Origin: Asterias amurensis
Lineage: Eukaryota; Echinodermata; Asteroidea; Forcipulatida; Asteriidae
NCBI RefSeq assembly: GCF_032118995.1
Contig: NC_092649.1
Coordinates: 13,898,191-13,962,190, forward strand
Reading direction: 5' to 3'
DNA length: 64,000 nt
Shown here piece after piece: positions 8,072 through 59,884 of the stretch. The position numbers and the translations under genes were made by a program. The notes below the pieces were generated by a model that saw only the letters and a list, made by a program, of their open reading frames with translations, was not told where the DNA came from and did no database searches. The number at the start of each line of letters is the position of its first letter. Position 1 is the first letter of the stretch.

Positions 8072-8075
8072 TATA

Positions 8076-34600: not shown

Positions 34601-36662
34601 ATTCCACTAACGTCTGCAACAACAACACGCACCACGCTCCAAGCTTCGACAAGAGGTGAGTATGATAATATGGTGTATAGGCTAGGTAGCAGCTAGCAGG
34701 ACATTCTGTGGTGCCCCCCCCCCCCCCCCCTCCACCCACCCCGGATATTCTGTCCTCCGTATTGGGTAGAAATGACAGCGCCCTCAATTATTTTACCGGA
34801 TTTGGTGACAATCACCGGGGACTTTTTCTAATAGACAGAAGACGACCAATAAACCGTCTTTGTCCAACCAAATTAAACAATATTATGTTCGTCTAAAGCA
34901 ATGACTCGTGTCAATACAAGGATTGTTTTCCTTCTTTAAAGCTATTTATTTACTGAAATTTGTAAACGAAACTGGGTAAATTGCAAAACTTTTGCCAACA
35001 GTAGCTTGGGTCCATCTCTCGAGAGTTTGCATAAAATACAATACAATACAAACATAGTTTACTTCTGAAGCAGTCGGGTAGAATGCAAGCAATGAGATGA
35101 ATGCATGCAGAAAAGGTATACATGAACCAGATGAAAGTAATCGGGACTGCGGTGTACAGAATTGGCTGATATATCGGTAACAGATAAAGGTTTAGAACAT
35201 AAACAATTTAACTCATCAAGCAGCACATCACGAACAACTTTATGGAGGTCATCCTGTGAGGCAAACAAATCAAGTTTATTATTACAAATATTACCTTTTT
35301 GAAAGGTGATCTCATTTCTCATGCAGTCCTCAAATTACAGAGAGTTCTTCTATGTCTCCCAATCTTTTCACCCGTTTTCTCCACACCATAGTGTACGAGA
35401 ATGCTAATTTCTTGGTGCGTGATGGACAGACCAACGTCACAATGTGCTTTGATGTCATCGCGGTGCCTGGAGATAATCTGATTCTGCTGATAGATCCTCT
35501 TAACGGTGAGTTAGTGTTATTCATTAGTGTACAAAATTGCATGTTTTCGTTCCACACAGTGTTTGCAACTTGGCCATCTTTACTTGAGATTCGTTGGAAT
35601 TTTAAATAAACGTATTTTCTTGTCAAGGTGTTGATAAGGATAAAATTGGCTGAGCAAAATATGTATACAGCTTTCGGTTGATGTTTCCTATTCTGGTAAA
35701 AGTCCTTAGCTTACTTGAATTCTTCTTCATGTTTCAGATTTGGAAATCAGGGCTCAAGTAGCAAGTGCGTTGAACAGTCACTCAGGGAATGGCCCCGCCC
35801 CGCTAATTATCGAACGACTCTTTGTGAATGTTGGCAGGCAACACATCGTTGTCTCCACAGAACAAATATCGTCTGCAGATGGCACATTCTCAGTCACTTG
35901 GGTTGGCAACCAGATTCATTTAGATGGCGGGTTGGTTCTATCGGTGTCTCAAGATGGTGCCCGTCTGACCCTCCAGCCAAGTGCAGACATCAGCCTCGTT
36001 GTGACAAAGCATGTAGGGCGCCACCAAGAGGATAAAGCCGATTATTTGGGATTCAGCACGGACAGTGGTGAAGGGTTTTCTGACTCTGTAGGAGGTTTGA
36101 TTGGTAAGTCAATGTTATCATATTACGGTGTCAAAGAAGAGAGCAGAACAGAATTTAGTACGAGTAAAACATACAATCATCAAAATTAGAGTAAAGTTAT
36201 GCAATTTTACTAAACTGTTCTTTTAACTGATAATTGGAATTTACACCAGCTGAAAATATAATCAACATTACTTTTTCTTAAATCAAAGCTGTATAAAGTG
36301 ATGCTTTTCATTCGATAGGCAAACTCGTGCGGTATTTCTGTCAACTTGGTCACCTATAATATGCAACATTCCTAAATGTATAACTTCAATGCTTTCAACA
36401 TCCATTGTTATACCATGTACATGTATGTGTATCAAGCTAAATCGTTTATAGTGGTGATTGAAGTTAAGTTCTTGCAAACTATCTTCCTAAATTAGGTTCA
36501 TTCGTTGGCAAAGAAATCACCCTCACCAAAGACAGTGGATATGTCAAAGGTGCCATCCGCATCGGCGGTGAGAAACGACAGGAGGTCACCCTAGAGGTCA
36601 TGCGGGACATCCGGGAAGACACAGCCAAGTCATGTTGGTATTCTGGCAGTAAATCGGCTTGA
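25667..36662 (+). CDS. ITIH-A: heavy chain-like with Thr-rich linker, 15 exons, 1065 aa
   Basis: Coding exons: 25667-25807, 26912-27055, 27880-28091, 28245-28355, 28924-29062, 29627-29905, 30142-30427, 31201-31781, 32595-32826, 33132-33221, 33784-33897, 34485-34655, 35341-35505, 35738-36103, 36496-36662. All introns are GT-AG and the sum is 1066 codons with the stop. Signal peptide [19 protein letters not shown]; exon 2 opens RERR, a good furin site (residues 48-51). VIT about 118-250; VWA from about 362 with a complete MIDAS (D369, S371, S373, T439, D474). Exons 10-12 (residues about 709-833) form a linker ending in a mucin-like Thr-rich stretch with TVPTTHT-type heptads. In the C-terminal domain the DPHF position reads NANF (854-857), and the protein stops at CWYSGSKSA, about a dozen residues short of ITIH-1. 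It is probably secreted, perhaps O-glycosylated, and not expected to use the vertebrate chondroitin-sulfate linkage. No clear AATAAA lies close to the stop; one is near 38092. Confidence 0.92.
26220..26536. mobile_element. Complete TTAA-type MITE; empty site of the recombinase element
   Basis: Flanked by perfect TTAA copies (26216-26219, 26537-26540), with AGGCAGTGGACAC at the left and GTGTCCACTGCCT at the right. Near 26306-26309 it contains the single TATA (GATGGTATAAAACATTG) that is split by the 2308-bp element in units B and C. It lies in intron 2 of the ITIH-A transcript (between the signal-peptide exon and the RERR exon). Confidence 0.85.
26674..26836. repeat. Imperfect palindromic repeat, CGACTTCGGCTTTGGATTCGG type
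   Basis: CGACTTCGGCTTTGGATTCGG at the left (with an internal duplication of CTTTGGATTCGG) is met by its inverse, AGCCGAATCCACAAGCCGAA, near 26808-26827. The same copy stands at about 45594-45757 in unit B. It ends about 75 bases before exon 2 of ITIH-A. Confidence 0.65.
27101..27453. mobile_element. Diverged TTAA-type MITE in an ITIH-A intron
   Basis: Carries the family core (ACGGCTCCCTCTGAAGTCACG and the TTGATCC...CAGGCTTGTTAG version of the shared block) and ends at ACGTGTGTGACT before TTAA (27454-27457). The left end is decayed. The same copy is at about 46020-46374 in unit B. Confidence 0.6.
30479..30735. mobile_element. Short element with TTCACACTG inverted ends, in an ITIH-A intron
   Basis: Starts TTTTCACACTGCATCAC and ends TAGTGTGAACGGG, an imperfect terminal inverted repeat. 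The GC-rich interior differs from the surrounding intron. A nearly identical copy at about 49377-49638 lies in ITIH-B, so it predates the unit duplication. Confidence 0.5.
32111..32470. mobile_element. TTAA-type MITE in an ITIH-A intron
   Basis: TTAA at 32107-32110, then AGACAGTGGACACTATTGGT; the inverse end AGTGTCCACCGCCT is at about 32457-32470. The GAGGTCTCGAA palindromic centre is preserved. The unit B copy is 51012-51371. Confidence 0.8.
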
Positions 36663-39600
36663 AAGAAAACGATAAAAGATTAAAGGTTTATAGGCCAGTG
36701 TAGGCTTGGTTAAAAAAAACATCAGCGTTTATATTCCATCGTTGAAATGTTGTTCTTCTGTGATATGTTTCCCTCTCAATTAACAGATCAACAGCTGATT
36801 TGTATTGTTGCAACCAAAGTTAAGGACCAAGTGTTTACAAGCCGAAAATGTTTATACGCCAAAAATATGAATGAATTTTTACTATTTTTCATGAGACTCC
36901 ACAGCGGATTAATAAGCCCGAACTTTCACAGATTTATCATTTCATTCAATGTGTTTGATCATAAAAAACATGAACACTGTGAATATTTTGTCAGCTTATA
37001 GAGGCTACTTTAAATACTCGCCTATAGACGATGTGACCTCTGACGTCACACGAAAACCACAACATGATTCGCGCGCATACCGCCCGGGCCAAATTTTCGT
37101 AGCCAGCTAGAAAGTGATTGCAATCTTACCGGCGAAACATGCGTATAAAGTGTGGGGGGTTTTCAACAGAGGGCGGTTTGAATGTTAACATAGGTCACAT
37201 TGCCTATAAAACACTTGTCTATAATGGATTATTAAAAAATAACTTAATAATGAATTATACAAAAATTTAAAGAGTACGAATTATGTGTTAGTCAATACAA
37301 ACAAAAGTGTCCTGTGCTGGTTGAATGATAACAATATACTGTGGTTGTTATCGTTTGCCATTGTAAATAGATGAATTTCTTTAACATTTTAGTCATAGAG
37401 AGATTGGTAATATTGGTACATCAGAAAGGAGAACAATAGTAAAAAGAACTGACATTATTCCAATCTCAATTATGAAGTGTTGTTTGAATGTCATATGTAT
37501 AAGGACTATACAGGTGTTTTTTTTAATGTAGTTGTCTGTAGAGACGTTTACGAAACTTATGAATTGTTATATACTAATTACGGTGAGGTATCATCATGCC
37601 TTTCAAATCCTTCAGTGGGACAAATCCTTCTACCAAGTATTGATCGTTGGGGAAAACACTGGTCCTTTCAGGGAAGGGTATAATATAAACTAAGAATATT
37701 TTTAATCAGGCAAAATAGCACAGAAATGTTGGTAAAGGGATGTTTACATACATGTAATTTTGTCCTCTTTTCATCACTTCAACACATCCAAAGAAACAAT
37801 GACCATTAATTGAGCTCATTCAGCCATGAATTCATTGACATGTTACATTGTCAAACAACACTTAGGAAACATATCATCCCACATCCCAGTCACTATGTAA
37901 AGAGATCCTTTTTGTAGCATTGTATAAATGATTACATTATTATAGACGTATGTTACTTTACAGTATTATGGTTAACGTAGTATGTTTTCGCAGTGAGTGC
38001 GCGCGGTTGTTTGTTTGTTATCAACTAATTTTGCCTGGCACTCATTGTTAATTAACGTATAGTGTTGTCTTTTGTGCGACAATGTTGTTAACAATAAAAT
38101 AGTCGGTGAGACGATATATTGATAGTGAAGAGTACACTCATTTTAAATGTAAAGTTTAAAGGAACGTTACTGAATTGGTAAGAAACACAAATCGTGAAGA
38201 TCACAGATTTACATAAAACTTACACGGTCTAATGATGATTGTAGAAAACATCCCTTGAAATATCTATGTCTGAAATTTAATATTTGATGAGAAACAAATA
38301 GTCTAATTTCACGTTTGGAGTTTATCGCGTTTTATTCATTTTTGTCTTGGCATCAATGCAATGCAAAATTTGTAATCGGTTTTTCACTATTCTCTCACGA
38401 CCCAGATGGCCGGTCGATCTCAAACTTCGACAGGTTTGTCAGTTTATGAATATGGTGGATTACATAAAGTGCTTACACTGCCAGCAACATTTTTGCAAGC
38501 AAAACCAATTCTGTAATGTTCCTTTAAGGTTTAGTATTGGATTAACCAAAACTGTTTTATTTTATTAAGTTGAAGAAGAAAAAACTTTATTCGAAGACCT
38601 ACTCGAGGGCTACAAGTTCATATTTGTTTTGTGTCAGTGGCCAATGTTTGAAAATGCAAGAGGGCGGGTTGCCGAAAATGGTTGGCATACAAGTTTGCTC
38701 CGAGTTTATGAGTTTGACCATAACTCCTGAACTTCTCCCTGCATCCGAATATCAAAGTTTAATGGCGGATTCGACACTCCTTCAACTGGAAATGACTAGT
38801 AAGGACGTTTCGAACGCTCATCAACAGCCACCCCAATGGAACTTGTGTACACAGAAATGTCAATGGGACAATCACAAGTTTAATTGAGGTCAATTCACCT
38901 AATAGTGCTTATTAATGTGAAATAGTTTTTATATACCATTGGAAAGCCCCTTTCGAGGGCTCCCTGCCCATACTCATTGCATTGCTGTTTCCATGGGCAA
39001 GGAATTGGGCTTTTATTTCCTCCACAAAACTAACGCACTTGGATTGCGCTGTACACAGCGTGTCACACATATGCCGGCGGAAAATGGTTTGAAAAAAAAA
39101 AAAAAAATCTCCTCAACAGCCTCCCCAATGGGGTCTTCGTAAACAGAGCTGTCAAAGAGAAAAACACAAAATATTTATTCAGGTAAAGTCCCCCTTCTCC
39201 GATTTAATGCTCAATCTGAACAAGAGTTATACCTCTCCATCACCAATGATTCCACTGTTAATTTCCACACAAAAATGGACTCTTTCAAACTACTGGTTCA
39301 AGGTTAACATTGTGTAATGTATTTTTTTTTTTTTTTTTTTTTTGCTGTTAATGTTATTGATTTTCAGCGTGTTTGTAATATGAGGAGTGGTCTTCAGTGT
39401 GAATAAATAATTTCCTCCGTGGAAAAAAAAAACCCAGATCATGTTTACCTTTCGGCAAGTACGTTTCCAATGCCTTTTTCTCGTACAATGTTTATTCAGT
39501 GAAGATTTCGTAGGCGGCGGGCCAGCGGACATGAAGTTTGCCTACAACCACCACAGCGCGTGGCATAACTAAAATGCCGACGGAAAATGGTTGCAAACAA

Positions 39601-40690
39601 CAATTTTGTGCCGAACTTTCCAATAACTCTGGAACTAAGCATGCTAGATAGCACAGCATACACCTGACTCTTCCTTGTAAATCCCGCGGCATCCGAATAT
39701 TAGTGTTTAAGTGGGTTTGAGCATCTATATTGGAAATGACAAGAAAGTGGAACGCTTCGAACGCTCCTCAACAACCTCCCCAACGAGATTTTTGTATACA
39801 GAGTTGTCAATAAGAAACACAAACTTTAGGTCAGGTCCCCCCCCCCCACAAAAAAAAAAAAAAAAAAAAAAAAAAAAACACGATGTGAGAGAGATTCGTC
39901 ACCAACTCCTCCATAATACAAACAGAGAGACTGGATCTGGACTTGGAAATACTGCATAATCTCTCTCATTTATTTCATTTTTAACAAACTTATTTCTGAC
40001 ACCAAGTTTTCAGTTTTGGGTATTAACCGTGTGGCTATAGAAAAACAGCATCCAGCAGGAGCAATGCGTGTTTTTTCTATCACTTTAAAGTCGCCTGGAA
40101 ATATAATTTTTAGAGTATATGCCTACGAACAATAAAACAATTTTTTTCAGTAATTGTTTGTCACGATTTATATGTTTAAAAAATATATAAAGTTGTTTGG
40201 GTGGTTAACTCCGCCTACCCCTTTTGTGACGTCAATCGAGGCAGACTTTGCCTGCAATGTGTATAGTAAACACATGTGCAAAGTACATGTACGTCCAAGT
40301 CGTGAGTTGGTACATTTCAAAAAGTGTTTTTCTGCATTCAGCAGCAATACACCTGGTCGGCATTGCCGGAAAAAAAAAGAAAAAAAAACCTCACGACTTG
40401 GTCCGTAAATGTACTTTGCAATTGGGTTTACTCTACGCATTACAGGCAAAGTCTGCCTCGATTGACGTCACGAACAGCGCCCTCTCGGGTCGGGGTCTAC
40501 TCTTAAATTTGTAAATAACATAAGAACTGATTTTGTTAAACCTTAGTTAACTGTTTATTCACATTCCACTCATCAAAACACATATATTAGTGACAAAAGC
40601 TTTATTTTGAAAAAATACCACTTCCAGGTGACTTTAAACAAGGGAGGAAAACCTGAGTCTTTGCATTGGTCTAATGCAGATGCCTGTTAA
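36663..40690. other. Spacer after ITIH-A: 3' UTR, MITE and three diverged direct repeats
   Basis: No gene. Expected 3' UTR sequence is followed by a complete MITE (38160-38523). Then come three related blocks starting near 38630, 39070 and 39570. They share a GGAAAATGGTT-type start, an ATAACTC...CATCCGAATAT middle and a CTTCGAA...CTCAACA...CCCCAA end. Palindromic MITE arms are at 40225-40265 and 40440-40490, and compound C/A homopolymer tracts are present (39838-39878). Confidence 0.6.
38160..38523. mobile_element. Complete TTAA-type MITE, AGGAACGTTACTG subfamily
   Basis: Flanked by TTAA on both sides (38156-38159, 38524-38527). The ends AGGAACGTTACTGAATTGGT and ACCAATTCTGTAATGTTCCT are inverted repeats. 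The interior word GACAGGTTTGTCAGTTTATG resembles the core of the other subfamilies. Unit B copy: 57036-57394. A decayed relative is near 9072. Confidence 0.85.
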
Positions 40691-41279
40691 CAGGAAAGGG
40701 GTGTGTAGGTCACTAATTTACCGAGCAGCTGCTGTTTAAACCGATGTACCAGGCGTTGAGGATTATCAAGTGTACGGAGTGGTCTTTTTTCAAGGCACCA
40801 ATAGTACACCGTGCACTGACCAAGCACGACAAGAAGAGTGTATCGGATGCTAAAAGCGACTTGAATTAAGTCTCTAGGGGGACTTTGACTCACTGACAAA
40901 TGGGTAGCACAACAGAGTGGCACCACCGAGGAACGGTCGCTTGATGGGGATGTTTCTAGGAAAATCCGATGATATAGTGAGTTGTTATTTTATTTGTTGG
41001 TTGTTATTTTTTTCTTCGTGAACAATCGAAATAACAGACACTTGTCGTAACTTGGAAAAGAAAACGCTGTATTGGGAAGATAGAAGGGGTTATAAAAAGG
41101 AAACTATATTTCTGTGGTAAGTCACTTTGGTCACCTGCGAGACACAGTGAAGGAGCTATAATATAAGGGTCTGGTTTCGCTGTCTGACAGTTCTGTATTA
41201 AGATTGTATTATCTAGTAATCTAGTACACCTGCTCAAATAATTCGTGCACCTACCTCCTATCTCATCGACATTGGCAAG
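40690..41279 (+). promoter_or_regulatory. ITIH-B promoter with TATA box and non-coding first exon
   Basis: TATAAAAAGG at 41091-41100, a kappaB-like GGAAAATCC at 40959-40967, and a leader exon ending at 41279 (GGCAAG|GTAAGT). The matching acceptor is TTGTCACCAG before 42261 and the start codon is at 42280. It corresponds to 23440-24025 upstream of ITIH-A, with many substitutions and small indels, so it is older than the recent unit duplication. Confidence 0.6.
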
Positions 41280-41343
41280 GTAAGTTGCAATGGATTGATA
41301 ATTGAACTGTGTTGTAATTGTATGCTGTTGTTTTCTTTGGTTA

Positions 41344-41634
41344 GGGCCATGTCAAACGAGGCAATTTACGGGCAACCAGGTCCAGGCAAAAAGAACATGG
41401 CACGCGGCGACGGCACCCAAGATGTCACACACGAAAAAAGACCAGCTGCTTCGCCGCTCGCACTGCCGTCGATTTCACAAAACTCTTCCTAACTAAAGAC
41501 TAATCTAGGGACTTTAGGACGAGTCCCAACCCTGCACTGTAGCATGCAAACCTTACTATTGATCCTAAGTTAAGACGGGTTACTCGTCCTAACTCGAGAT
41601 AAGACGAGTCCTAACTCTTTGTGAAATCGACCGC
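41344..41634. repeat. Repeat cluster: GGGCCATGTCAAACGAGG block and a GTCGATTTCACAAA MITE
   Basis: 41344-41460 resembles a dispersed block also seen truncated near 24113. It is followed by a small element with ends GTCGATTTCACAAA (about 41468) and TTTGTGAAATCGAC (about 41619-41633) and inner ACGAGTCC/GGACGAGT words. Unit B/C copy at about 59949-60239. No protein. Confidence 0.5.
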
Positions 41635-42279
41635 TGGTCTCTTTTCGTGCGTGATGCAGAAATGTTTTAACTGATTATCGTTTTGTCTATAAAACTGTTA
41701 GCATTTAATCGCAACTCGTTCATGTTTTAATGAATTATTGTTTGTGCACGTTTACATGGGGGATACTGCAACACTCGATTGAAAAAGAAATTGGGAATAT
41801 TATAAACACCAATCACAAACAACCAATCTTTCTAATTGCACAAAGCAAGAAAAATGCGGTTCATTAACTGGACAATATTATAATACTTATTCTTATCGTT
41901 GTTAAAAATGTTAGCTTAGGGATTCGAACCCAAAACCTTGTAATTGCAAGTCTTACTACAGGAATATAAACAGGCATGCAAGTTTTGAGCTGATCAGCTG
42001 ATTTCCTCTTTTTCTTTTCAAAATAGTGCAATGGGAAACTAAAAGACACTGTACAGAAGTGTGTTCGGTCAACTCTCTTTTTTGTTTGCAATTAGAAAAC
42101 TGCATGTCTGTGTATAGATACGAAGTGCGATAAGTCATATCAAAAGCTGTGCATACCTTGAGTAATTTCACTGATGTCCATCTCAAATATTTCTTGTAAA
42201 CCTGAGAATCCACAGCCATTGATTTCTGTCATCGGGAACCTTTGTTATTATTGTCACCAGTTGCCGGTCAAGACGAAAC

Positions 42280-45200
42280 ATGGCGTCCATGCTGGCGTTG
42301 TTTACGGGAGTGATTGCCACCGGGTTGCTCTACAGTATCACCGGGTCCTCAGCAGCCCCTGCAGCCCTCGGCAGCCCGTCGTTCCTGGCGGTCATGAAGG
42401 AATTGGAGGAGTTTGTCCCGGTAAATACTTTCGAACTGTTAACCAAAACATAGAGGGACAAATGTTGAGTATGTTTGTTGAAAGAAGCTCATTCTGAACC
42501 GGAACGTGAGCCTACTCCATGTGGAGCTTGTGTGTGTAAACAACTTGAATCTGTCGGGTGGAAAATGTGAATGTTAGGGGGCAAATTGCGTGCAGATTGT
42601 ACGCTCTGGGCTATAAAAAGCGGGGTTTTTTCTTGTTTTTGGTTGGAAAGATATTGTTAAAGTAGAATATGATTCACATGAAAGGACTGTGTGTTTTTGT
42701 GTAATATCATGACGGAACACGGTCTGCCAGTTAAAACTATAGTTAAGCATGACTGGTCACGTGGGGTGCTTTATTCAATATACCTCTGCACTGAAAAATA
42801 GCTCTTCTGTTGTTCCATGAGTGTCTTAAAGGCAGTGGACACTTTTGGTAAGTACTCATAATAATTATTAGCGTAAAACCTTTCTTGGTGACGAGTAATG
42901 GGAAGAGGGTGATGGTATACAAATATTGACTGCTTCGAGTGCTATGGTTAAAACTATGACTCCCGAGGTGATCCCCGGAGCGTTCTATTTTCCCGAGGCG
43001 AAGCCGAGGGAAAATAGAACGCTCCGGGGATCACCGAGGGAGTCATAGTTTTAACCATTGCACGAGTAAAAGCAGTCAATATTTGTTTTATAACACCCCA
43101 AACATTTTTTAAGTACAATTAAGTCACAGACCTGAATGCTACAATAAATCAAACCAACATACGATTTTTCTTAACTTCAACACTTTTGAACACGTTTTAT
43201 TTTTAACTTTAATTCTTGTCACATAAAATTATTTAATAACTGTTATTATTGTTGCACTTTTGAACATGTTTTATTTTTAACTTTATTTCTTGTCACATAA
43301 AATTATTTAATAACTGTTCTTATTGTTGCACTTTTGAACATGTTTTATTTTTAACTTTAATTCTCGTCACATAAAATTATTTAATAACTGTTCTTATTGT
43401 TGCACTTTTGAACATGTTTTATTTTTAACTTTAATTCTTAACACATACAACTATTTAATAACTGTTCTTATTGTTGCATAAAATTAAAATTAACAATACA
43501 TCCATGGAAGCGAAAAGAGCGGTTTGAGTCATTAATGTTCAGATTCTGTGTACTAGTAGTTGTACTAGTAGTAGCTTCAGTTGATGTTGTGCTGTTGGGT
43601 GAAGCTGTTGGCACATTCATGATGTCTTGCAGTACACCTGCGCTTAGTATGGATTCCTCCTGTGATGATGTTAGAAACTGAGACAGACGTTGTTGATGTG
43701 GTTGATGTGTTGGACTTTGTGTGATTGTTGATGGAGCGGAATGCGATGAAGAGGGCCTGGCTACAGACTCTTCCATGTTCATGGCTGCCGACAAAACAGA
43801 ACTCATCTTACGTTTTTTGCTTTCACTGGTTCGGCTATAATTCTTGATACTTGACTCTGAGTGGTGACCCGATACTGTCATTATGTCTCTGGCTTCAAAC
43901 CCGGCATTATCCAGAATGGTAACGCTTGTGGCACGGAAGCAATGGTTTGTGTACACTCGGCTGCATTTCGCTTCTATTGAAATAACTTTCAGTTTATTGC
44001 AAAGGGTGTTTTTGCCTACTGGAATATTGCAATACCATACCTCATCGGAGATGCCTGTTGAAGCATTGTCCCTCGGTCTCTGCCAAAGGAAATCACAGTT
44101 CGGGTGCAGTTTCTGCTTGTACAGTCTAAATGTCCGGACAGGGCAACGTGGGTTTCCTGGAATCTCATACATTACACCGGCCTGGCTTTTGTTATCATCG
44201 TTCTCCCTACTGTTTTTTGTCAGTTGATCCCGTTTCGTGATGAAGCTGAGCCCCTTGGAGTCTGTGTGCTCTTCAAAATCAGATTTTTTTAGGTCTCGAA
44301 TGTTCTCTCGACCACGGTTACAATGATACATCATGACATCGATAAATACTTTATTCTGCAAACCAGCTGGTGTGTTAATGTCTGTGCGTGGAGATGCATT
44401 AATTTTATCCATGTCCTCTGGGGTGATAGGGTTCTTGTGTTGCACGCAGCCTTTCCCAAGTTTTTTCAGATTAACGAGAGTCGCCTTAAACGACTGGTTT
44501 GACCTTTCAAATGCTTTATCAATCACAATATCCATTGAGTTGGTTTCACGGTCCTTGAAATGTCTCTGTATACCATATCTAATTGTTTGTAAGCTCTTCT
44601 TACAATAGATATCGCCATTTACTTGCCGCACCTCCATGTAAAACCTTCGTAGGAAAGTATCCAGTTCTGCTGGGTTCATCCTGTCCACCTCCGATAAAGT
44701 GGTGTTTTTAACGTTGCAGTACTCTGACAGAATGTTAACAGTGTACTTCAAACTTCTCTTTGTACTGGGCGAATCTGCCGATTCAATCATCTCTTTCAAC
44801 TCTTCCTCCGTAAGGAGAGCGAAGCGGGGGTTTTCCGCAGTCATCTTTAAAGAATTCACGGACGACACGAATGCAAATTTACACAAACCTTTACTGTGCT
44901 GCAACAAGTCATGTAATCTGAAATGGTTACAGACTATTTATCATCCTCATATTCGTAACGTTCGTCGTACCACTGATCTCTATATACGCGCGTTGCATGT
45001 ATATATATGTACAATGATTGGGTTCGTGTGGGTAAAGGGACGTCTGGGTGCTGCACGCCATGTGCTAGTCTGTCGGACTAGCGCACGGCGCCATGGGCTA
45101 GTCTGTCGGACTAGCGCATGGCAAACCGACGCACTATGACACGGCCGTCGTCTAGCAAAACTAAGACATGTCATGTGACGCGCTCTAAACCAATGAGCAG

Positions 45201-48200
45201 GCAGAATATTGGTAAGGGGTGTTATAATATAAAACATTGTGAGAAATGGCTCCCTCTGAAGTGCCATAGTTTTCGAGAAAGAAGTAATTTTCCACTAATT
45301 TGATTTCGAGACCTCAAATTTAGAACTTTCATTATTATCTCGCAAGTTCGATGACCGATTGAGCTCAAATTTTCACAGGTTTGTTATTTTATGCATATGT
45401 TGAGACACACCAACTGTGAAGGCTAGTCTTTGACAATTACCAATAGTGTCCACTGCCTTTAATGCTTAGAGATTAAATCCACATCATATGTTCATTACTA
45501 TAGTTTTAAATGTTTATAGTTTTAGGTGTATTTTTTTACGCAAAACATTTACATTTAAAGCTTGTCTCAGATAGTGTATAAACATTAAGTAAAAACGACT
45601 TCGGCTTTGGATTCGGCTTTGGATTCGGCTCTGGCTAGCCTGGCCCAGCGGTCGTTTTGAAAATTGCGCTTGTTTTGCTTAGACATTCAGGCCTTTTTCA
45701 GGGCTCCCGACGCGAACATAGAGCTTGGAGCCGAATCCACAAGCCGAAGCCGTGGTTTCGAAAAGGGCATATATGGCAGATAAAAATTGCATTTTAACTC
45801 CAGCATTTTGTATTCTTTGAAATTGTTATAGCGTGAAAGAAGAGATACGAGGAGGCCTCCCAGTTTGATTCCTACGATGAGCCCAACCACACTGGGCACG
45901 GTGGGGACCACATTGGGTACCAAGAGGCACACCACAATGGGTACCATGACGAGGCCAACACCCAAGGGGGACAAGGTGGGTCCTTTTTATACCTCTATGG
46001 TGAGACCTGTCCGTGATGAGGCACTTGGCAGTTTTGTATAATATTATTCAAAATAGTTGTTAGAAAAATAACTAACCGGCTGTATATAGCCGTTGATAGT
46101 ATAATTAACATTTTGTGAGGAACGGCTCCCTCTGAAGTCACGTAGTTTTTATTTTTTAGAAAGAGGCAATTTGTCACTAAAATGCGGAAGTCTTTTATTT
46201 TTAACTATAGCAGTACGCTTAAATTTTTACAACGAGGTGTTCTTCTTTTGACGGTCATTTTCTTGAAACTTCGATAACCAATTGATCCCCCACTTTTCTC
46301 AGGCTTGTTAGAGTATTGTGTGGATATACATAGTGAGAATGCTGGTAATTGGCAACTACCAAACGTGTGTGACTTTAAAGAAGAGCCTTTTTAAAAAATA
46401 AATATTTAAAAAAATTCGAAAGTTATTTCATTATGTGAAAACATAATTTTGATGTTCATATTGTAAGGCATATTGTAAGGCATACAAACTGATGACAATA
46501 ACGTTTCTTAGATTGTGCATTCATAATAAAAAGTGATTTATTCTTCATGCATCTATTTTTACATGGGATTAAAACACTCGAGTCGATTCCAAATCTTTAA
46601 TACTCTGTCTTTAAGAAATATTAGAGTAGATTTCGAATCTTTAGCCCACCAACAAAATATAATTAATTTGGCCAGACCAGTTGTTACCTAATTGAAACCT
46701 TAAGAAATGACTACAAACAACTAAAACGAAACAACTAAAACGAACTGTTTAAAATTCGCCCTTTCCAAGAAAAGTGTTGACGTTGTATTTTCCGATCAGG
46801 TTGAAACTGCTGGCAAAGGCATTGATGGTAAAAGCTCAACCGACACCGACACTGCTCTGAGATTGAGGGGTCTGCGCGTGACGTCAACCATAACAGCCCG
46901 CTTCGCCAAGACAGTTGTGACATGTCACGTGACCAACCCAGCGAGTCAGGGTCAAGAGGTCAACTTTTACATCGAGCTCCCTAAAGAGGCGTTCATCTCG
47001 GGATTTCTGATGTGAGTTCAAGACACTAACTTCAGTACTTAAAGGGACATTCAAGAAGATGAAATGTATTATATAAAATGTGCATGTGTTTTTGTGTTTA
47101 TTCAAAGAGATATTGGATATAATATGGGCCAAATTATTAACAATCTTCCACTTTCCTCCAACAGTGAGACAGAGGGGAAAGTGTACCGTTCCAGGGTCGA
47201 TGAGAAAGAGAAGGCGAAGGCGGCTTACGAGCAAGCCAAGCAACAGGGACAGACAACTGGACATGTGTCACAGACGTGAGTACAAATAGCGAATTATTTC
47301 CATTAAACTTACTACATTTCAGCTGTCTGCCACAGAGCTTGGTCATACACTTTATAGAAACACACACAATATTGTATACGCCTGCAATCACATGGACCTC
47401 TTCGTCCCTCTTGTGTTTAAACTCTAACTTTGTTGCAAAGGCTCCCATTGGTTTTGACACGTTTTCCAACTGTGGACCTTTCCCGAACCGTGGACCCTAT
47501 TGTCCTCTGTTGTTATAGGTCCCCGGTATAAATGTGTATACCTCCTCACTTATTCTCAAATTATGCATCCCTGTGGAGACATATTTGGTGCCTGTACTGA
47601 AGATTTCCCCTCAGACTTTGTACACAAAATTTCTTGTAGAACATCCCGGTCTTTAGACGTTCCCTTTGGAGCACCTTTATCTTGTTTCCTTTTTTTATTT
47701 TATTTTGTCCTTTTTTCCCAGAAGGCGCCGCATAGAGGGCATATACATATTGTATTACCTTTCATCTAGGGTAGGCACTAAATTGTACCCGTCACTAATT
47801 GTCTGAAATATTATTTGGCTAATTTGGTACAGGTCGGAAAAGAAGAATGACTTTACGGTGTCCATCAACGTTGCCGCTGAGGGCGCCCTTTCATTCAATC
47901 TGACCTACGAGGAGCTGCTGAAGCGTCACAATGGCTATTTCGAAAACGTCATTTCTATTTCACCTCGCCAGGTAAGATCCCAAGATACCATATATATTCC
48001 AAGGCCGACTGTGTATAGAAATTATTTTTCAACATCCTGGTAGCATTCTATGCACAAACACCTTCTTGCTGTCCCTTTCTTCTTGCAACTTTGTTGACTG
48101 ATTGGGCGCAAAGTTACACAGGTCTGTTATCTTATGCAGGCGTTGGGATACATCAAGCGAGAATACTGGTCTTTGACAATAACTGAAAGTAAAGTATGCA

Positions 48201-51200
48201 TTTAAACCTATGCGAATTGGCGACTTCAACTAGGCTACTTGTATTTCACCATCATGACACAGTTGTAATTATACAGTTACACTGTACATTCAATAATGTT
48301 AGGTTAAGTATGCAGTGTGTAAAAATCAAAGAACAAAAGGCAACACTCTTGTTTTGTGCTCATATTAACGTACCTCTAACTTCGTACTTTGCCGTGCTCC
48401 GCGGGATGGGAGGCTATCCTTGCACCAAGTTGGGGCCGTTCCCTGGGCTCCAAACAAGGCGAGCTAGGACCGAGTAGGCATCATCAAACTCCATGGTAAT
48501 AATCTTGTTATTATTGGTTTCAGCTTGTAAAGCATCTCATTGTCAACGTTTACATCGAAGAACCTCAGGGCATCGACGGCGGTAAAATGGATTTCTTTTT
48601 GGAGCGGCCCAGCTCGACGGACTATGAGAAGGTTGTAGTGCGCCCTCAATGGGCAGAGATGAAACAACTCCAACGTGACCGTGTCCACGTGCAGTTTCAC
48701 CCAACCACTGAGGAGCAAGAGCTGCTCGCATCTGATGGCGTGCTGGGTAAATTTATAGTGAGATATGACGTCATTCATGGAGAAAATGCTGGCAAAATTG
48801 AGGTTTGTTTCTGAAAATATTGAAATAAAAAATAATCAAATCATAGTTATTATCTTTGTGAAATTTTGTTCCTTAGGTCAACTCAACCTGTGCTAATCTG
48901 AAAGTCGCAGTTACGTTCAGCACAAACAACAACAACAACAAAAGAACTTAAATTATTTTGTAGAGTTAGGCCCTATCTAACAAAAGTTAATACTGAACTT
49001 TATGTAACAGTTTGTTTTGTTTTACTGTGCTATTTTTAAACAGATTGTCAACGGCTATTTCGTGCACCACTTCTCCCCTGCTGGATTACGACCAGTTAGT
49101 AAGAATGTGGTCTTCGTTCTCGACACCAGCGGATCAATGAGTGGTACCAAGATACGGCAAACGAAAGAAGCAATGGGGAAAATCCTGACGGAATTGCGCG
49201 AGCAAGACAACTTCGGATTGATAACGTTTGCGTCTCAGACCACAGTTTGGCGTGAGACCATGATGTCAGCGAATAAAGATAACATCGAGTTAGCCAAGGG
49301 AAGGATAAGTCAACTGAGAGCAAACGGAGGTTAGTCGATTTTTCTTTATCAGTCAAATACGTGGACTGTAACTGGCCCCTTTTCACACTGCATCACTTTT
49401 CTGCGTGGAACACAACCCTTTATGAGGCCCAGGGGGTTGTTTTACCCCCGCAGTTACCCGTGTGTACTTTCACACTGTACCAGCAAATGTCCCTCATCCA
49501 GGGGGGTTGCCCCTACTCCAGAGCAGCCGGGTAGAATGTTCTCCAGGGTATGCCCACTGGGAGGGGTTTAGTAGAGTGAAAGGCCTGGCCATTATTCGGC
49601 AGGGTTTCCCCGGGCAATATATTAGTGTGAACGGGCTTAGTAGAGATCACCTTACTGTGCAAAAAACATCCCAACGCTGCAGCATTAAGCTTTGTATTGT
49701 GGTGTAACATTTGGAATGACGTGGTAAGGGTGTACACAGAAAACTGAAAGTGTTCAAGCTTGGGATTGATTTTGCGCTTAATTTTACAGTTTAGGCTCAG
49801 TTTTATTCGTACACATTTATCAAAAGCAAGATTCCTTTAGTACAAAATAGTACTGGTCGTTCTTTATGCACTTTGAAGAACGCTTAAGTTCTTTTTTTTA
49901 ATCCATAACCCTCTGCCTGTTTGTGTTATTGGTGAATAAGTACCTACCAACAAGTCAGGTTTGTAAATTCAATACCACAATAATAATGTGAAAATGCCAG
50001 ACGTTTCATTGACTACAGTGTCGTCTGTCCAATATTAATTGGTATCAGACTAGTTTGTTGTAAATTTGAATGTGAATTATTGTGTTGTTTATTCTATACA
50101 GGAACTGACTTACATGGAGGGATCGTAACAGGTATTGATATGTTGGAAGACTTCAAACGTAACGAGCTCGGGTCTGACGGTGCGTTCCCACTCATCATCA
50201 TGTTGACTGACGGGCAGCCAACCTCCGGTCGAATCACAAACACTGACGGCATCGTTTCAGACATCAAATCGAGAATGGAAGGGAGATTTTCCCTGTTCTG
50301 CCTCGGTTTCGGCAACAATGTGGATTTCTCCTTCCTGGAAAAGCTCTCCCTTCAGAATCGCGGTCTCGCCAGGAAGATCTACGAGGATGCCGACGCAGGG
50401 CTGCAGCTGGTGGGGTTCTTCGACGAGGTAGCCACCCCTTTGTTGACTAATGTTGTCATCAAGTACGAGAACACCAACAACGCTATCCAGGTCAACAGCA
50501 TTTCCCAGAGCGAGTTCCCTGTGTACTTTGACGGCACTGAGTTGGTTGTGGCAGGCAAGTTAACTACTCTGCTCGATGAAACCGATGGTGAAGTTTCGCC
50601 AGAACCGGTGAGGATTATCTGCACAGTCCTTGCTACATCCTGGGAAGATGAAATTATACTTGAAACCGAAACTGAAGTCAAGGTAGGTGTAATAAGTTTA
50701 CTCACAAAATTATAATACATCTCGCCTAACAATTATACACTGCTTGCTAAACCAGTGTCTTGATTCGGGTCATGGGATCAGATAAAATAAGTTTACATGG
50801 ATATAAACAGGGGCTAGGCCGTATCTCATGTCCTAGTGGGGCTGACCCTTGTGTAGGTAAGTGTGACCCGGAAAATCAAAAAGTTACCCAGAACACTCCC
50901 GCATTTTTCTTGTTGTACATTGAAATCAATCTAGGCCTATTATTAAAATGGCCATTGATCACATCAGGTCACTGGACACTGTTTCGTCACATGTTTCTAG
51001 TTGATCTTTAAAGACAGTGGACACTATTGGTAATAGTCAAAGACTAGTCTTCACAGTTGGTGTATCTCAACATATGCATAAAAAAACAAACCTGTGGAAA
51101 TTTGAGCTCAATCGGTCGTCGAAGTAATGAAAAAAACAACACCCTTGTCTCACAAAATTGTGTGCTTTCTGATAATTGATTTCGATACCTCAAATTCTAA

Positions 51201-54200
51201 ATCTGAGGTCTCGAACTAAAATTCGTGGAAAATTACTTCTTTCTCGAATACTACGTCACTTCAGAGGGAGCTGTTTCTCACAATGTTTTAAACTATCAAC
51301 CTCTCCCCATTACTCGTAATCAAGAAAGGTTTTATGATGATAATTATTTTGACCGATAGTGTCCACCGCCTTCAAATGCATTTGTTTTTCATGGCATCTT
51401 ATTGCTGAGCGCCATGATAACTATAGTTGGAAAGGCGCAATAGAATTCCCGGTTGTAAATCAATTAATTTAGAATGAATAATTTTTCTCGCGCAGAATGA
51501 GACGGAGGGTATGTTGAGTCCACGATCTGTTGACGACTTTGCGCAGAGATTGTGGGCATTCTTGACCATCAAGGAACTTCTACGCAAGCGCAGTGCAGCC
51601 GACGGCGACGCCGAGAAGGCAAACCTGACGGAGAGGGCGCTTGAACTGTCCCTAAAGTATCACTTTGTGACGCCTCTGACGTCATTGGTGGTGGTGAAAC
51701 CAGACGAAGAACCTGTGATTGATGGAGGTAAGTATCGAAGCGAGGCCATACGGGTACGGCTATTGGCTGTTGCTAAAGGTGTTGCTAAGTACGAACCACA
51801 CTTCAACTTATGATGACGCGGAGACCTAGCCGTAGCCGTGGCTGTAGCCGCTAATCCGAAAACGGCCTAAATTCCAGGAATGAATTACTTCTGGTTGTCT
51901 TAGATCGTTCTCAATGTTGGCACTGTTTGATATTAACCTTTTAAAATGATTTCTCATAATATATTTATTCTCAGTAATGATATACTATTTTATTTGTTGA
52001 TGGATTTTCTTAACGTTTTTGTTTCGGGTCAGGGCCAATTAGAATTCAGGACGAAAATTCACACCATCGATTAGCAAGCATACAACCAGTATCATTACGG
52101 GGGAGATATTTGATGCAACCCGGCGAGTTTATTTATTTTACAATGATAATAATAATAATAAAACGGACATTTATATTGCGCAGTTACCTATATAAATATA
52201 CTCTACTGCGCACTACAAGGAATTTTATTTATTTTATTTATTCTTCGCACAATACAATAACTCTTATAACAAGCAAAGACCGTCCAGTGAAAGGCAAAAG
52301 TGGAAGCAAAACTGTCATCAAAAAAGATTGGCCATAAAAGTGTTAAAGTTCATATGTAAGTACTAAACATTACACAGAAATCTTTAACTGGAAGTAAAAG
52401 TTAAAGCAAACGATGCCAGGTAAAAGCAATACACGATTTGTGAATGCTATTAAAGTTTGAAGTGAAATATTACTTAAAAAACGAACGACCATCACGTTTC
52501 AATTTTAAATGGAAAAGAAAATTGATAAACAGATGGAAAATGTTTCCTCAAGTTCCAAATTTCAACACAAAAAAAAAAACATTTCTTGTTCGCAAGACGT
52601 CTTTGACTGATAAGCACGGTGAGAGACTTTTTTCATCATTGGTCTTCCTCAATTTGTTTGCATTATTAGGCCCAATCGGTCCGCCCTACAGAAACCAATA
52701 TAATCACGGCCCAATTAGTGTGGGATTCACTGTTTCGACACCGCGACGCTACCGTACTGTGTTGCCTACGTTTAGACCACTGCGTAAGTAACTTGAATTT
52801 CTTCTTGATTTTATGAATAAAAGTTCCTTTGATACTGTTCCGTTCGTCATCTTCAAAACTCCTTTCTCGTTTTTTTATTGCTGTTTCATTATCATCTTAT
52901 TGTTTACATCCTCTTTTAGTTCAATTGTAAGTTTGTTGCTTGTCTCTTTTGTTCTGAATCCTTTTGTTTTGTCTTTCTTACTTTCCCACCATTCGCTATC
53001 ATTCGAGAGGTTTTTTTTTTGCTGTCATGTCTTTCGTTTTGTATTATTTTGTCAAGCATTTCAAAACAAGCCTTTATGGCTTCTTGTTGGTTTGTAAAAT
53101 TGAACGATCTCTGCGACCTAATAAACTTGAATGTACTTTTTTTTACCAGGGAATAGTGAACTGTGAAATACTAACTCGGGAGAGAAGAGTTTAGGTTTTG
53201 TAATCCACCAGGGGCGCAACATTTCAAAGTGCTTTTCTACGTATATAAACATTTGTATACTGACCGTGGCGTTTGTATCAGTGTTATCTGCTTTTGAAAC
53301 TCATTATAGAAAGAAGAAAATAAATGAAATTTAGACAGGGTATAATGTATTGGGTTTTTTTTCTTCACAGCTACACACAGTTTCTTCATGCCTTCAACGA
53401 AGACGCGTACAACGACTACAACGGTTCCAACTACGCATACAACGGTTCCAACAACGCATACAACGATCCCAACTACGCATACAACGATTCCACTAACGTC
53501 TGCAACAACAACACGCACCACGCTCCAAGCTTCGACAAGAGGTGAGTATGATAATATGGTGTATAGGCTAGGTAGCAGCTAGCAGGACATTCTGTGGTGC
53601 CCCCCCCCCCTCCACCCACCCCGGATATTCTGTCCTCCGTATTGGGTAGAAATGACAGCGCCCTCAATTATTTTACCGGATTTGGTGACAATCATCGGGG
53701 ACTTTTTCTAATAGACAGAAGACGACCAATAAACCGTCTTTGTCCAACCAAATTAAACAATATTATGTTCGTCTAAAGCAATGACTCGTGTCAATACAAG
53801 GATTTTTTTCCTTCTTTAAAGCTATTTATTTACTGAAATTTGTAAACGAAACTGGGTAAATTGCAAAACTTTTGCCAACAGTAGCTTGGGTCCATCTCTC
53901 GAGAGTTTGCATAAAATACAATACAATACAAACATAGTTTACTTCTGAAGCAGTCGGGTAGAATGCAAGCAATGAGATGAATGCATGCAGAAAAGGTATA
54001 CATGAACCAGATGAAAGTAATCGGGACTGCGGTGTACAGAATTGGCTGATATATCGGTAACAGATAAAGGTTTAGAACATAAACAATTTAACTCATCAAG
54101 CAGCACATCACGAACAACTTTATGGAGGTCATCCTGTGAGGCAAACAAATCAAGTTTATTATTACAAATATTACCTTTTTGAAAGGTGATCTCATTTCTC

Positions 54201-55533
54201 ATGCAGTCCTCAAATTACAGAGAGTTCTTCTATGTCTCCCAATCTTTTCACCCGTTTTCTCCACACCATAGTGTACGAGAATGCTAATTTCTTGGTGCGT
54301 GATGGACAGACCAACGTCACAATGTGCTTTGATGTCATCGCGGTGCCTGGAGATAATCTGATTCTGCTGATAGATCCTCTTAACGGTGAGTTAGTGTTAT
54401 TCATTAGTGTACAAAATTGCATGTTTTCGTTCCACACAGTGTTTGCAACTTGGCCATCTTTACTTGAGATTCGTTGGAATTTTAAATAAATGTATTTTCT
54501 TGTCAAGGTGTTGATAAGGATAAAATTGGCTGAGCAAAATATGTATACAGCTTTCGGTTGATGTTTCCTATTCTGGTAAAAGTCCTTAGCTTACTTGAAT
54601 TCTTCTTCATGTTTCAGATTTGGAAATCAGGGCTCAAGTAGCAAGTGCGTTGAACAGTCACTCAGGGAATGGCCCCGCCCCGCTAATTATCGAACGACTC
54701 TTTGTGAATGTTGGCAGGCAACACATCGTTGTCTCCACAGAACAAATATCGTCTGCAGATGGCACATTCTCAGTCCCTTGGGTTGGCAACCAGATTCAGT
54801 TAGATGGCGGGTTGGTTCTATCGGTGTCTCAAGATGGTGCCCGTCTGACCCTCCAGCCAAGTGCAGACATCAGCCTCGTTGTGACAAAGCATGTAGGGCG
54901 CCACCAAGAGGATAAAGCCGATTATTTGGGATTCAGCACGGACAGTGGTGAAGGGTTTTCTGACTCTGTAGGAGGTTTGATTGGTAAGTCAATGTTATCA
55001 TATTACGGTGTCAAAGAAGAGAGCAGAACAGAATTTAGTACGAGTAAAACATACAATCATCAAAATTAGAGTAAAGTTATGCAATTTTACTAAACTGTTC
55101 TTTTAACTGATAATTGGAAATTACACCAGCTGAAAATATAATCAACATTACTTTTTCTTAAATCAAAGCTGTATAAAGTGATGCTTTTCATTCGATAGTG
55201 CGGTATTTCTGTCAACTTGGTCACCTATAATATGCAACATTCCTCAATGTATAACTTCAATGCTTTCAACATCCATTGTTATACCATGTACATGTATGTG
55301 TATCAAGCTAAATCGTTTATAGTGGTGATTGAAGTTAAGTTCTTGCAAACTATCTTCCTAAATTAGGTTCACTCGTTGGCAAAGAAATCCGCCTCACCAA
55401 AGACAGTGAATATGTCAGAGGTGCCATCCGCATCGGCGGTGAGAAACGACAGGAGGTCACCCTAGAGGTCATGCGGGACATCCGGGAAGACACAGCCAAG
55501 TCATGTTGGTATTCTGGCATCAAATCGGCTTGA
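42280..55533 (+). CDS. ITIH-B: near-identical paralogue of ITIH-A, 15 exons, 1065 aa
   Basis: Coding exons: 42280-42420, 45832-45975, 46800-47011, 47165-47275, 47833-47971, 48524-48802, 49044-49329, 50102-50682, 51496-51727, 52033-52122, 52670-52783, 53371-53541, 54221-54385, 54618-54983, 55367-55533. Exon lengths equal those of ITIH-A in all 15 cases and the frame is open, so selection has probably kept it. MIDAS, RERR site, Thr-rich heptads, NANF in place of DPHF and the short CWYSG...KSA end are all as in ITIH-A. Amino-acid differences are few and scattered, for example T for A in the VWA exon, and P for T and Q for H in exon 14. The donor after exon 10 is GC (52123-52124) instead of GT; GC-AG introns exist but are rarer. 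Intron 2 holds the Crypton-like element. Whether all exons are used cannot be judged without transcripts. Confidence 0.9.
42830..42919. mobile_element. MITE left part, split by the Crypton-like element (unit B)
   Basis: Left piece of the same MITE that is whole at 26220-26536. It begins after TTAA (42826-42829) and breaks at TATA (42916-42919). The right piece resumes at 45228 and ends at 45458 before TTAA (45459-45462). Together the pieces equal the unit A copy. Confidence 0.9.
42920..43085. repeat. 166-nt terminal hairpin of the transposon (unit B)
   Basis: Arms CAAATATTGACTGCTT... and ...AAGCAGTCAATATTTG pair almost throughout. There is one asymmetric bulge near 42936-42944 with its partner, and two symmetric GA/GA mismatches at 42965-42966 with 43036-43037 and 42995-42996 with 43006-43007. 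The loop is GCGAAGC (42998-43004). The complete equivalent in unit C is 61525-61690. Confidence 0.9.
43181..43478. repeat. Four 74-bp tandem repeats inside the transposon
   Basis: Repeat starts (CACTTTTGAACA) at 43181, 43255, 43329 and 43403. Copies are nearly identical, the last partly degenerate, reaching the recombinase stop codon at 43468. Equal copies in unit C from 61786. Possibly a recombinase binding array or simply slippage; neither is shown. Confidence 0.9.
43468..44844 (-). CDS. Tyrosine recombinase (Crypton/DUF3504 type), 458 aa, unit B
   Basis: Single uninterrupted frame from ATG (44842-44844, [16 protein letters not shown]) to TAA at 43468. In-frame sequence further upstream has no ATG. 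Residues about 1-125 resemble an N-terminal core-binding region; about 140-340 form the catalytic domain. Catalytic set visible: R179 in [11 protein letters not shown]204 in the FITKRD strand, H301-x-x-R304 in NHCFRATS, H327/H328 in SGHHSES, and nucleophile Y336 in KNYSR. This is the R-K-HxxR-H-Y set of active tyrosine recombinases, which nick DNA through a 3'-phosphotyrosine. The family includes the DUF3504 domain of vertebrate KIAA1958 and ZMYM proteins, domesticated from Cryptons. The tail after 350 is Ser/Thr/Gln-rich and probably disordered. It should cut and rejoin the ends of the element that carries it. The gene has no visible introns. Confidence 0.88.
   Translation of the reverse strand: MTAENPRFALLTEEELKEMIESADSPSTKRSLKYTVNILSEYCNVKNTTLSEVDRMNPAELDTFLRRFYMEVRQVNGDIYCKKSLQTIRYGIQRHFKDRETNSMDIVIDKAFERSNQSFKATLVNLKKLGKGCVQHKNPITPEDMDKINASPRTDINTPAGLQNKVFIDVMMYHCNRGRENIRDLKKSDFEEHTDSKGLSFITKRDQLTKNSRENDDNKSQAGVMYEIPGNPRCPVRTFRLYKQKLHPNCDFLWQRPRDNASTGISDEVWYCNIPVGKNTLCNKLKVISIEAKCSRVYTNHCFRATSVTILDNAGFEARDIMTVSGHHSESSIKNYSRTSESKKRKMSSVLSAAMNMEESVARPSSSHSAPSTITQSPTHQPHQQRLSQFLTSSQEESILSAGVLQDIMNVPTASPNSTTSTEATTSTTTSTQNLNINDSNRSFRFHGCIVNFNFMQQ
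45228..45458. mobile_element. MITE right part, split by the Crypton-like element (unit B)
   Basis: Continuation of the MITE interrupted at 42919, beginning with the duplicated TATA and running to GTGTCCACTGCCT before TTAA. Contains the shared core TTTTCACAGGTTTGTTATTT. Confidence 0.9.
51012..51371. mobile_element. TTAA-type MITE in an ITIH-B intron
   Basis: Unit B equivalent of 32111-32470, with TTAA at 51008-51011 and the same ends. Confidence 0.8.
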
Positions 55534-58500: not shown

Positions 58501-59300
58501 GTACAATGTTTATTCAGTGAAGATTTCGTAGGCGGCGGGCCAGCGGACATGAAGTTTGCCTACAACCACCACAGCGCGTGGCATAACTAAAATGCCGACG
58601 GAAAATGGTTGCAAACAACAATTTTGTGCCGAACTTTCCAATAACTCTGGAACTAAGCATGCTAGATAGCACAGCATACACCTGACTCTTCCTTGTAAAT
58701 CCCGCGGCATCCGAATATTAGTGTTTAAGTGGGTTTGAGCATCTATATTGGAAATGACAAGAAAGTGGAACGCTTCGAACGCTCCTCAACAACCTCCCCA
58801 ACGAGATTTTTGTATACAGAGTTGTCAATAAGAAACACAAACTTTAGGTCAGTCCCCCCCCCCCCCCCCCACAAAAAAAAACAAAAAAAAACACGATGTC
58901 CAAGTCGTGAGTTGGTACATTTCAAAAAGTGTTTTTCTGCATTCAGCAGCAATACACCTGGTCGGCATTGCCGGAAAAAAAAGAAAAAAAAACCTCACGA
59001 CTTGGTCCGTAAATGTACTTTGCAATTGGGTTTACTCTACGCATTACAGGCAAAGTCTGCCTCGATTGACGTCACGAACAGCGCCCTCTCGGGTCGGGGT
59101 CTACTCTTAAATTTGTAAATAACATAAGAACTGATTTTGTTAAACCTTAGTTAACTGTTTAATCACATTCCACTCATCAAAACACATATATAAGTGACAA
59201 AAGCTTTATTTTGAAAAAATACCACTTCCAGGTGACTTTAAACAAGGGAGGAAAACCTGAGTCTTTGCATTGGTCTAATGCAGATGCCTGTTAACAGGAA
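55534..59300. other. Spacer after ITIH-B
   Basis: Equivalent of the spacer after ITIH-A. No gene. Contains the MITE at 57036-57394 and the three diverged direct repeats (GGAAAATGGTT starts near 57542, 57949, 58600). The middle repeat keeps a stretch at 57967-58128 that unit A has lost. The palindromic MITE present near 40225-40490 in unit A is reduced to its right half at 58897-59090. Confidence 0.6.
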
Positions 59301-59884
59301 AGGGGTGTGTAGGTCACTAATTTACCGAGCAGCTGCTGTTTAAACCGATGTACCAGGCGTTGAGGATTATCAAGTGTACGGAGTGGTCTTTTTTCAAGGC
59401 ACCAATAGTACACCGTGCACTGACCAAGCACGACAAGAAGAGTGTATCGGATGCTAAAAGCGACTTGAATTAAGTCTCTGGGGGAAGACTTTGACTCACT
59501 GACAAATGGGTAGCACAACAGAGTGGCACCACCGAGGAACGGTCGCTTGATGGGGATGTTTCTAGGAAAATCCGATGATATAGTGAGTTGTTATTTTATT
59601 TGTTGGTTGTTATTTTTTTCTTCGTGAACAATCGAAATAACAGACACTTGTCGTAACTTGGAAAAGAAAACGCTGTATTGGGAAGATAGAAGGGGTTATA
59701 AAAAGGAAACTATATTTCTGTGGTAAGTCACTTTGGTCACCTGCGAGACACAGTGAAGGAGCTATAATATAAGGGTCTGGTTTCGCTGTCTGACAGTTCT
59801 GTATTAAGATTGTATTATCTAGTAATCTAGTACACCTGCTCAAATAATTCGTGCACCTACCTCCTATCTCATCGACATTGGCAA
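59300..59884 (+). promoter_or_regulatory. ITIH-C promoter with TATA box and non-coding first exon
   Basis: Near-copy of 40690-41279: kappaB-like GGAAAATCC at 59565-59573, TATAAAAAGG at 59697-59706, leader exon ending at 59884 before GTAAGT, acceptor before 60866. Confidence 0.6.

Follow-up and report, generated by a model that had tools for sequence, protein, structure and literature searches.

We describe here a 2,308-bp element, E1 (42920-45227), in a 64,000-nt stretch of Asterias amurensis DNA (contig NC_092649.1, positions 13,898,191 to 13,962,190; hereafter the window, from whose first letter all coordinates are counted). E1 codes for a predicted tyrosine recombinase and is inserted at TATA inside a miniature inverted-repeat transposable element (MITE). 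Its ends, the corresponding empty site and the TATA on both sides of it can be read directly, as can a long hairpin at its left end and two matched half-sites, one at the right tip and the other just behind the hairpin; a second element in the window, E2 (8076-8557), has the same layout. The hairpin is most likely an integral end structure of these elements and is probably part of how they move. The reading that we favour, at about even odds, is that E1 is Crypton-like and that extrusion or folding of the hairpin brings together its 12-6-12 recombinase site, much as in the attC sites of integrons.

The ends of E1 are set by comparison of tandemly repeated units (A, B and C) of the window. Unit A shows the site empty, with a single TATA; the filled sites in units B and C read GATGG-TATA, then the element, then TATA-AAACATT, with the TATA doubled. 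A preliminary description of this DNA had taken the unit A site to fix the ends, and the aligned empty and filled sites confirm it; E1 thereby has at both ends a short direct repeat of the 4-6 bp kind expected of Cryptons. The E1 copies in units B and C show zero differences across 2,308 bp, within a surrounding stretch of 5,105 bp that is 99.8% identical, and therefore represent one insertion event that was duplicated later. We also aligned eight MITE copies chosen from the BLAST matches, other partial MITE matches being left out. Seven of the eight, unit A included, cover the insertion point, and all seven are without hairpin and element (two of these seven are tandem-unit copies of each other). 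Thus the hairpin arrived with E1 and was not part of the target, which excludes for E1 the possibility, raised in the same description, that the hairpin had been present before insertion.

At the left end of E1 the order is TATA, a 166-nt hairpin, TT and TTATAACACCCC; the last begins 2 nt past the hairpin and, as had been noticed before, is inverse to the right tip, GGGGTGTTATAA, without a mismatch. There follow an AT-rich region with 74-bp repeats, the minus-strand recombinase gene, 33-bp repeats, GGGGTGTTATAA and the second TATA. When up to one mismatch is allowed, the window contains the 12-mer four times (expectation 0.36), in every case exact and in units B and C. The 200-nt segment that follows the hairpin was shuffled 20,000 times, and in none of the shuffles was the inverse 12-mer located in the first 30 nt. 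The hairpin together with the inner half-site (42920-43099) has a computed folding energy of -81.2 kcal/mol (z = -21.6), a stability that none of 200 shuffles attained. The distance between the two 12-mers across a joined end would be about 170 bp on flat DNA; with the hairpin looped out, TATA and TT make a 6-nt core between them. In the fold computed for the predicted E1 circle junction the right tip pairs with the inner half-site, and TATA and TT adjoin the hairpin stem. The earlier suggestion that a circle would set two 12-bp repeats around a short core thus stands as regards the arrangement, while the circle itself is a step that we infer. Tyrosine recombinase core sites typically have arms of 11-13 bp and a spacer of 6-8 bp (PMC3212892).

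E2 came from a search of the window for strong inverted repeats, which gave a hairpin at 8070-8222, and then for an exact inverse half-site. It is 482 bp long, below the size of a recombinase, and its parts stand in the same order as in E1: TATA, hairpin, TT and half-site, and at the right end an inverse half-site that matches the first. The inverse of its inner half-site, GGTATAACAA, lies at 8548-8557, 320 bp further on; an exact GGTATAACAA arose in 3 of 5,000 shuffles of the next 500 bp and in 15 of 3,000 of the next 3 kb. The half-sites pair over 10 matching positions in the fold of the predicted E2 circle junction, as modelled with an extra TA. We regard E2 as a putative short non-autonomous relative of E1, on the basis of its tip placement, its right-end similarity and a scan for the combined features.

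When the right ends of E1 and E2 are aligned at the tip with one 1-nt gap allowed, 36 of 60 positions are identical (mean 19.3, standard deviation 2.9), a value reached by none of 9,838 sampled window segments and none of 2,000 shuffles. With the terminal 12 positions removed, 28 of 48 are identical; of the 118,530 positions that lie outside E1, three attain 28, and E2 is one of these (1 of 18,270 in a coarser sampling that kept E2 in the sample). The E2 tip is therefore backed by sequence that was not used in finding E2. The tip and inner half-site differ between E1 and E2 at 3 of 12 positions and yet pair, with 7 the same and 2 unpaired in E2, and the stem base differs at 4 of 14 and yet pairs, with 9 the same and 1 broken. 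These pairing counts arise partly by construction, the right-end similarity does not. A both-strand scan with a rule drawn from E1 and E2 (TATA, a 10-nt arm, the inverse arm, TT) returned seven places in the window; the two E1 copies and E2 fold at -0.43 to -0.49 kcal per nt and the remaining four at -0.08 to -0.23.

The hairpins share a further property, which lies on one strand. Twelve of the 15 plus-strand CCGAGG words in the window fall in the hairpins of the two E1 copies and E2, four in each, and none of the eight CCTCGG words does. On the folded plus strand CCGAGG puts GA opposite GA, and each of the five 2x2 internal loops of the minimum-energy folds (three in E1, two in E2) is a GA/GA loop flanked by C and G. 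Tandem G-A pairs are known for their unusual stability. The loops of the two hairpins differ by one base (GCGAAGC in E1, GCGATGC in E2), and that of E1 we take to be of an extraordinarily stable hairpin type. By analogy with the extrahelical bases by which IntI reads attC (PMC3053210), mismatches conserved on one strand could serve a protein that reads structure. The string GCGAAGC occurs in the literature on DNA hairpins. A discussion of extraordinarily stable hairpins is found in PMC10527192. The inner hairpin arms of E1 and E2 are not significantly alike, since 194 of 1,000 shuffles score as well. We judge the hairpin to be most likely integral because of the E2 layout, the right-end similarity, the shared CCGAGG words, and the half-sites and stem base that differ and yet pair.

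We propose that in both elements the left-end hairpin splits a single recombinase core site. Excision as a circle would join the right tip, TATA, hairpin, TT and inner half-site, and extrusion of a cruciform from the circle, or folding of a single strand, would then bring the half-sites into a layout of 12 bp, 6 nt (TATA and TT) and 12 bp. This could take two forms: a duplex 12-6-12 site from whose core a cruciform is extruded, or a site like attC that is single-stranded throughout. The recombinase would exchange strands at TATA with a target TATA, leaving TATA at both junctions; the circle, the extrusion or folding and the action of the enzyme on folded DNA are inferred. It is tentatively possible, though we rate it as somewhat doubtful, that E1 and E2 belong to an animal Crypton lineage whose recombinase recognizes a junction formed only once a terminal hairpin that bears conserved CCGAGG words (tandem G-A) on the same strand is folded.

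The elements might instead move as unfolded double-stranded DNA, with the inner half-site and CCGAGG as accessory binding sites and the hairpin as a spacer or architectural feature. Cryptons have been proposed, on the model of bacterial elements, to move as circular DNA, CCGAGG could act as direct repeats recognized in duplex form, and the fold energies give no strand preference. Left unexplained, however, would be why the spacer is a long and almost perfect palindrome in both elements when their inner arms show no significant likeness, and why the half-sites come to a 6-nt spacing only with the hairpin left out; we think this reading unlikely. Less probable still is a hairpin that serves some other step from outside the recombination site: it might form the 3' end of the recombinase transcript or silence that transcript, act as a structure for replication or priming, or protect the end. 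It does lie 3' of the minus-strand recombinase gene; however, the fixed position of hairpin and half-site at the tip would be unaccounted for, E2 keeps its hairpin although too short for a recombinase, and a scan of 42800-45300 found zero Rfam families at threshold. Finally, an ordinary Crypton with a classical 12-TATATT-12 circle junction might by chance have received an unrelated palindromic repeat between its TATA and its inner half-site. Removal of the hairpin does leave a textbook core of 12-bp arms and a 6-bp spacer, a second TATA 3 nt to the right of the E1 hairpin (43089-43092) could be the target duplication of an inserted hairpin plus TTT, and E1 offers a single independent insertion. 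In E2, however, the hairpin sits at the same place (between TATA and TT plus half-site), the right tip matches and the right end resembles that of E1; the next TATA (8223-8226) lies 6 nt from the hairpin rather than 3, so the duplication reading does not repeat. Because of E2, such chance nesting is very improbable.

Several observations weigh against assembly of the site by folding, or against the pairing of E1 with E2 on which it leans. The empty-site comparison exists for one insertion only, that of E1, and no empty site for E2 was found in the window. The 4-mer at the right of E2 is GATA and not TATA, and the outer two positions of its tip are unpaired. Since the search that found E2 used pairing hairpins and an exact inverse half-site, its pairing counts are partly a matter of construction. 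Two other stretches match the subterminal part of E1 at least as well as E2 does, 4576-4623 (plus strand, 29 of 48) and 12365-12412 (minus strand, 28 of 48), and the right ends, when compared locally without an anchor, show a weak likeness, with 54 of 2,000 shuffles as good and unrelated stretches scoring higher. Outside the motifs, stem ends included, only 3 of 1,000 shuffles score as well as the hairpins do, so common descent accounts for part of their likeness. Fold energies were searched for a strand preference and gave none (E1 -80.9/-79.2, E2 -62.2/-62.1), and the centroid fold of E1 leaves the outermost GA/GA loop unclosed. Neither a circle junction nor transposition was seen, and no relatives were found in the viral contig and genome contig collections scanned. 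Among the Cryptons reported without terminal repeats are 50 copies of one insect family together with its derivative (PMC3212892). The idea in the preliminary description that the element may move by recombining a folded strand is thus supported in part, by the arrival of the hairpin with E1 and the recurrence of the layout in E2; the energies favour neither strand. As a separate observation, the stretches at 4576-4623 and 12365-12412 may be chance matches or further decayed ends.

The recombinase open reading frame (ORF) of E1 matches the Pfam families DUF3504 (4.5e-8) and the QRICH1 domain above the cut-off and Phage_integrase (5.4e-6) just below it; matches of the XerC/XerA type are weak and far below the cut-off. 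The motifs R, K, HxxR and H(x8)Y are found (residues 178, 203, 300 and 325), and these are presumably the set expected of an active tyrosine recombinase. E1 thus codes for a predicted tyrosine recombinase with the catalytic motifs by which a Crypton is recognized. A single-sequence structure model was unusable (predicted local distance difference test score of 33), and a sequence search of PDB gave two matches (E 0.17 and 0.18, protease) that we did not take as real. Judged on ORF size, E1 has no reverse transcriptase or DDE transposase, its next longest stop-to-stop frame being 165 amino acids on the other strand; the domain scan within E1 covered the recombinase ORF. The coordinates of these and the other features are collected in the table.

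Table. Features of E1, E2 and the E1 target site (window coordinates)
Feature	Position	Strand	Basis or remark
TATA left of E2	8072-8075	+	
E2 left-terminal hairpin, 141 nt, GCGATGC loop	8076-8216	+	four CCGAGG on + strand
TT after E2 hairpin	8217-8218	+	
E2 inner half-site TTGTTATACC	8219-8228	+	
25-nt palindrome, subterminal right end of E2	8403-8427		12-nt arms, 1-nt centre
E2 right tip GTGGTATAACAA	8546-8557	+	10/12 inverse match to inner half-site; then GATA 8558-8561
Empty target site, unit A	26301-26316	+	reads GATGG-TATA-AAACATT, single TATA
Target MITE split by E1	42826-42919 and 45228-45462		
TATA, left copy of target/core 4-mer	42916-42919	+	single TATA in empty site A
E1 left-terminal hairpin, 166 nt, GCGAAGC loop	42920-43085	+	four CCGAGG on + strand
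TT, second part of putative 6-nt core (TATA + TT)	43086-43087	+	sequence
E1 inner half-site TTATAACACCCC	43088-43099	+	exact inverse of right tip
Four 74-bp tandem repeats, AT-rich	43181-43476		3' of recombinase gene
Tyrosine recombinase ORF, 458 aa from ATG, frame open	43468-44844	-	profile matches and motifs
Two 33-bp tandem repeats, subterminal right end	45056-45121		each an imperfect palindrome by eye
E1 right tip half-site GGGGTGTTATAA	45216-45227	+	
TATA, right copy	45228-45231	+	comparison with empty site
E1 copy, tandem unit C	61525-63832		identical to B copy

Among the closest known systems is the animal group of Cryptons (CryptonA; PMC3212892), with which E1 shares a DUF3504-related tyrosine recombinase, short non-autonomous relatives and a proposed circular intermediate; as in fungal Cryptons there is a short direct repeat at both ends, TATA in E1 and TATA/GATA in E2. 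A curation guide gives such a repeat as the only distinguishing Crypton feature (PMC8969392), and Kojima and Jurka reported animal Cryptons in 2011 without terminal repeats (PMC3212892), in agreement with the preliminary description, according to which classical Cryptons are not known to have such terminal structure. Vertebrate Eulor5/6 are also assigned to the Cryptons (PMC5753468). E1 and E2 differ in carrying matched half-sites (12 bp in E1), one terminal and one subterminal behind a long hairpin. No report of a hairpin end or a split half-site in Cryptons was found among the matches listed by searches of the open-licence literature for Cryptons, their ends and eukaryotic tyrosine recombinases with hairpins, Repbase entries and supplements lying outside their scope. 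By its sequence, E1 would be a Crypton-like element with an end structure new for Cryptons. Integron attC sites and IntI (PMC3053210) offer a possible parallel, combining a tyrosine recombinase with a foldable palindromic site that has conserved unpaired stem positions on one strand. In contrast to them, E1 is an animal transposon that carries its own recombinase and lies inside a MITE, without gene cassettes or an attI platform, and for E1 recognition of a folded strand is a proposal. Of the likeness to attC drawn earlier, the geometry and the same-strand CCGAGG/GA motifs are present, and the energies show no strand preference. Helitron2 elements (PMC3627910) also have asymmetric inverted repeats plus terminal hairpins, but they use a Rep/helicase protein, whereas E1 codes for a tyrosine recombinase and is flanked by TATA at each end. 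The DIRS, Ngaro and PAT retrotransposons (PMC4157794) share a tyrosine recombinase and internal repeats that couple with terminal ones; the 2.3-kb E1 differs in having no reverse-transcriptase-sized ORF beside its recombinase.

Recognition of Crypton ends has been hard to see because the animal members are described without terminal repeats, and a hairpin that conceals one half-site would explain their apparent absence. The arrangement also defines a precise core site that can be tested, 12-TATATT-12 with the hairpin inside it, and a rule by which the ends of further animal Cryptons, and of the short elements derived from them, could be sought. Should the folded form prove to be the substrate, recombination of folded DNA by tyrosine recombinases would reach into animal transposons as well, and a lineage that uses folded junctions would parallel, in animals, the folded-strand recombination of attC sites.

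The searches for relatives elsewhere used several patterns. In the viral contigs the loop word CCGAGGCGAAGCCGAGG gave 32 matches in 31 stretches; at most 27 of 80 flanking positions pair, and therefore no long palindrome surrounds these matches. The left-junction pattern gave three stretches there and the hairpin-arm pattern two, and inspection of all five flanks by eye revealed no similar element; the two-motif hairpin pattern gave no match. The recombinase pattern found 17 stretches and its C-terminal part 25, none confirmed as a relative. The E1/E2 consensus junction occurred in no viral contig and nine times in the genome contigs, with the upstream hairpin arm in none of the nine. Separately, viral contigs L015 and L020 carry CCGAGGCGAAGCCGAGG, and in L015 short complementary arms (GCCCAT...ATGGGC) enclose the same GA mismatches, which would fit an independent recurrence of the motif in microbial DNA.

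The right subterminal regions of both elements contain small palindromes (the 33-bp repeats of E1, the 25-nt palindrome of E2), which are possibly promoter or accessory binding sites. The tandem units of the window align as 26306-39100 with 45228-57970 and as 40293-45395 with 58898-64000, at identities over the aligned stretches of 97.7% (units A and B) and 99.8% (units B and C). Domains of von Willebrand A or the inter-alpha-trypsin-inhibitor heavy-chain C-terminus are matched by five of six scanned window ORFs (one slightly under the cut-off). Three of the five belong to a stretch on the minus strand at 10.7-14.3 kb and the other two to unit A, whose ORFs recur in unit B. The units thus appear to hold inter-alpha-trypsin-inhibitor heavy-chain-like gene pieces, with a minus-strand relative near 10.7-14.3 kb. 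A resemblance of the E1 target flank to the tip was dropped, since 45 of 736 TATA sites are equally similar, which is within chance. The unit A MITE (about 26191-26558) is empty of the element. The MITE that E1 entered is repeated, with TTAAAGGCAGTGGACAC-like inverted ends, and at the insertion point some aligned copies have GTTTAAAAC or GTGTAAAAC in place of GTATAAAAC.

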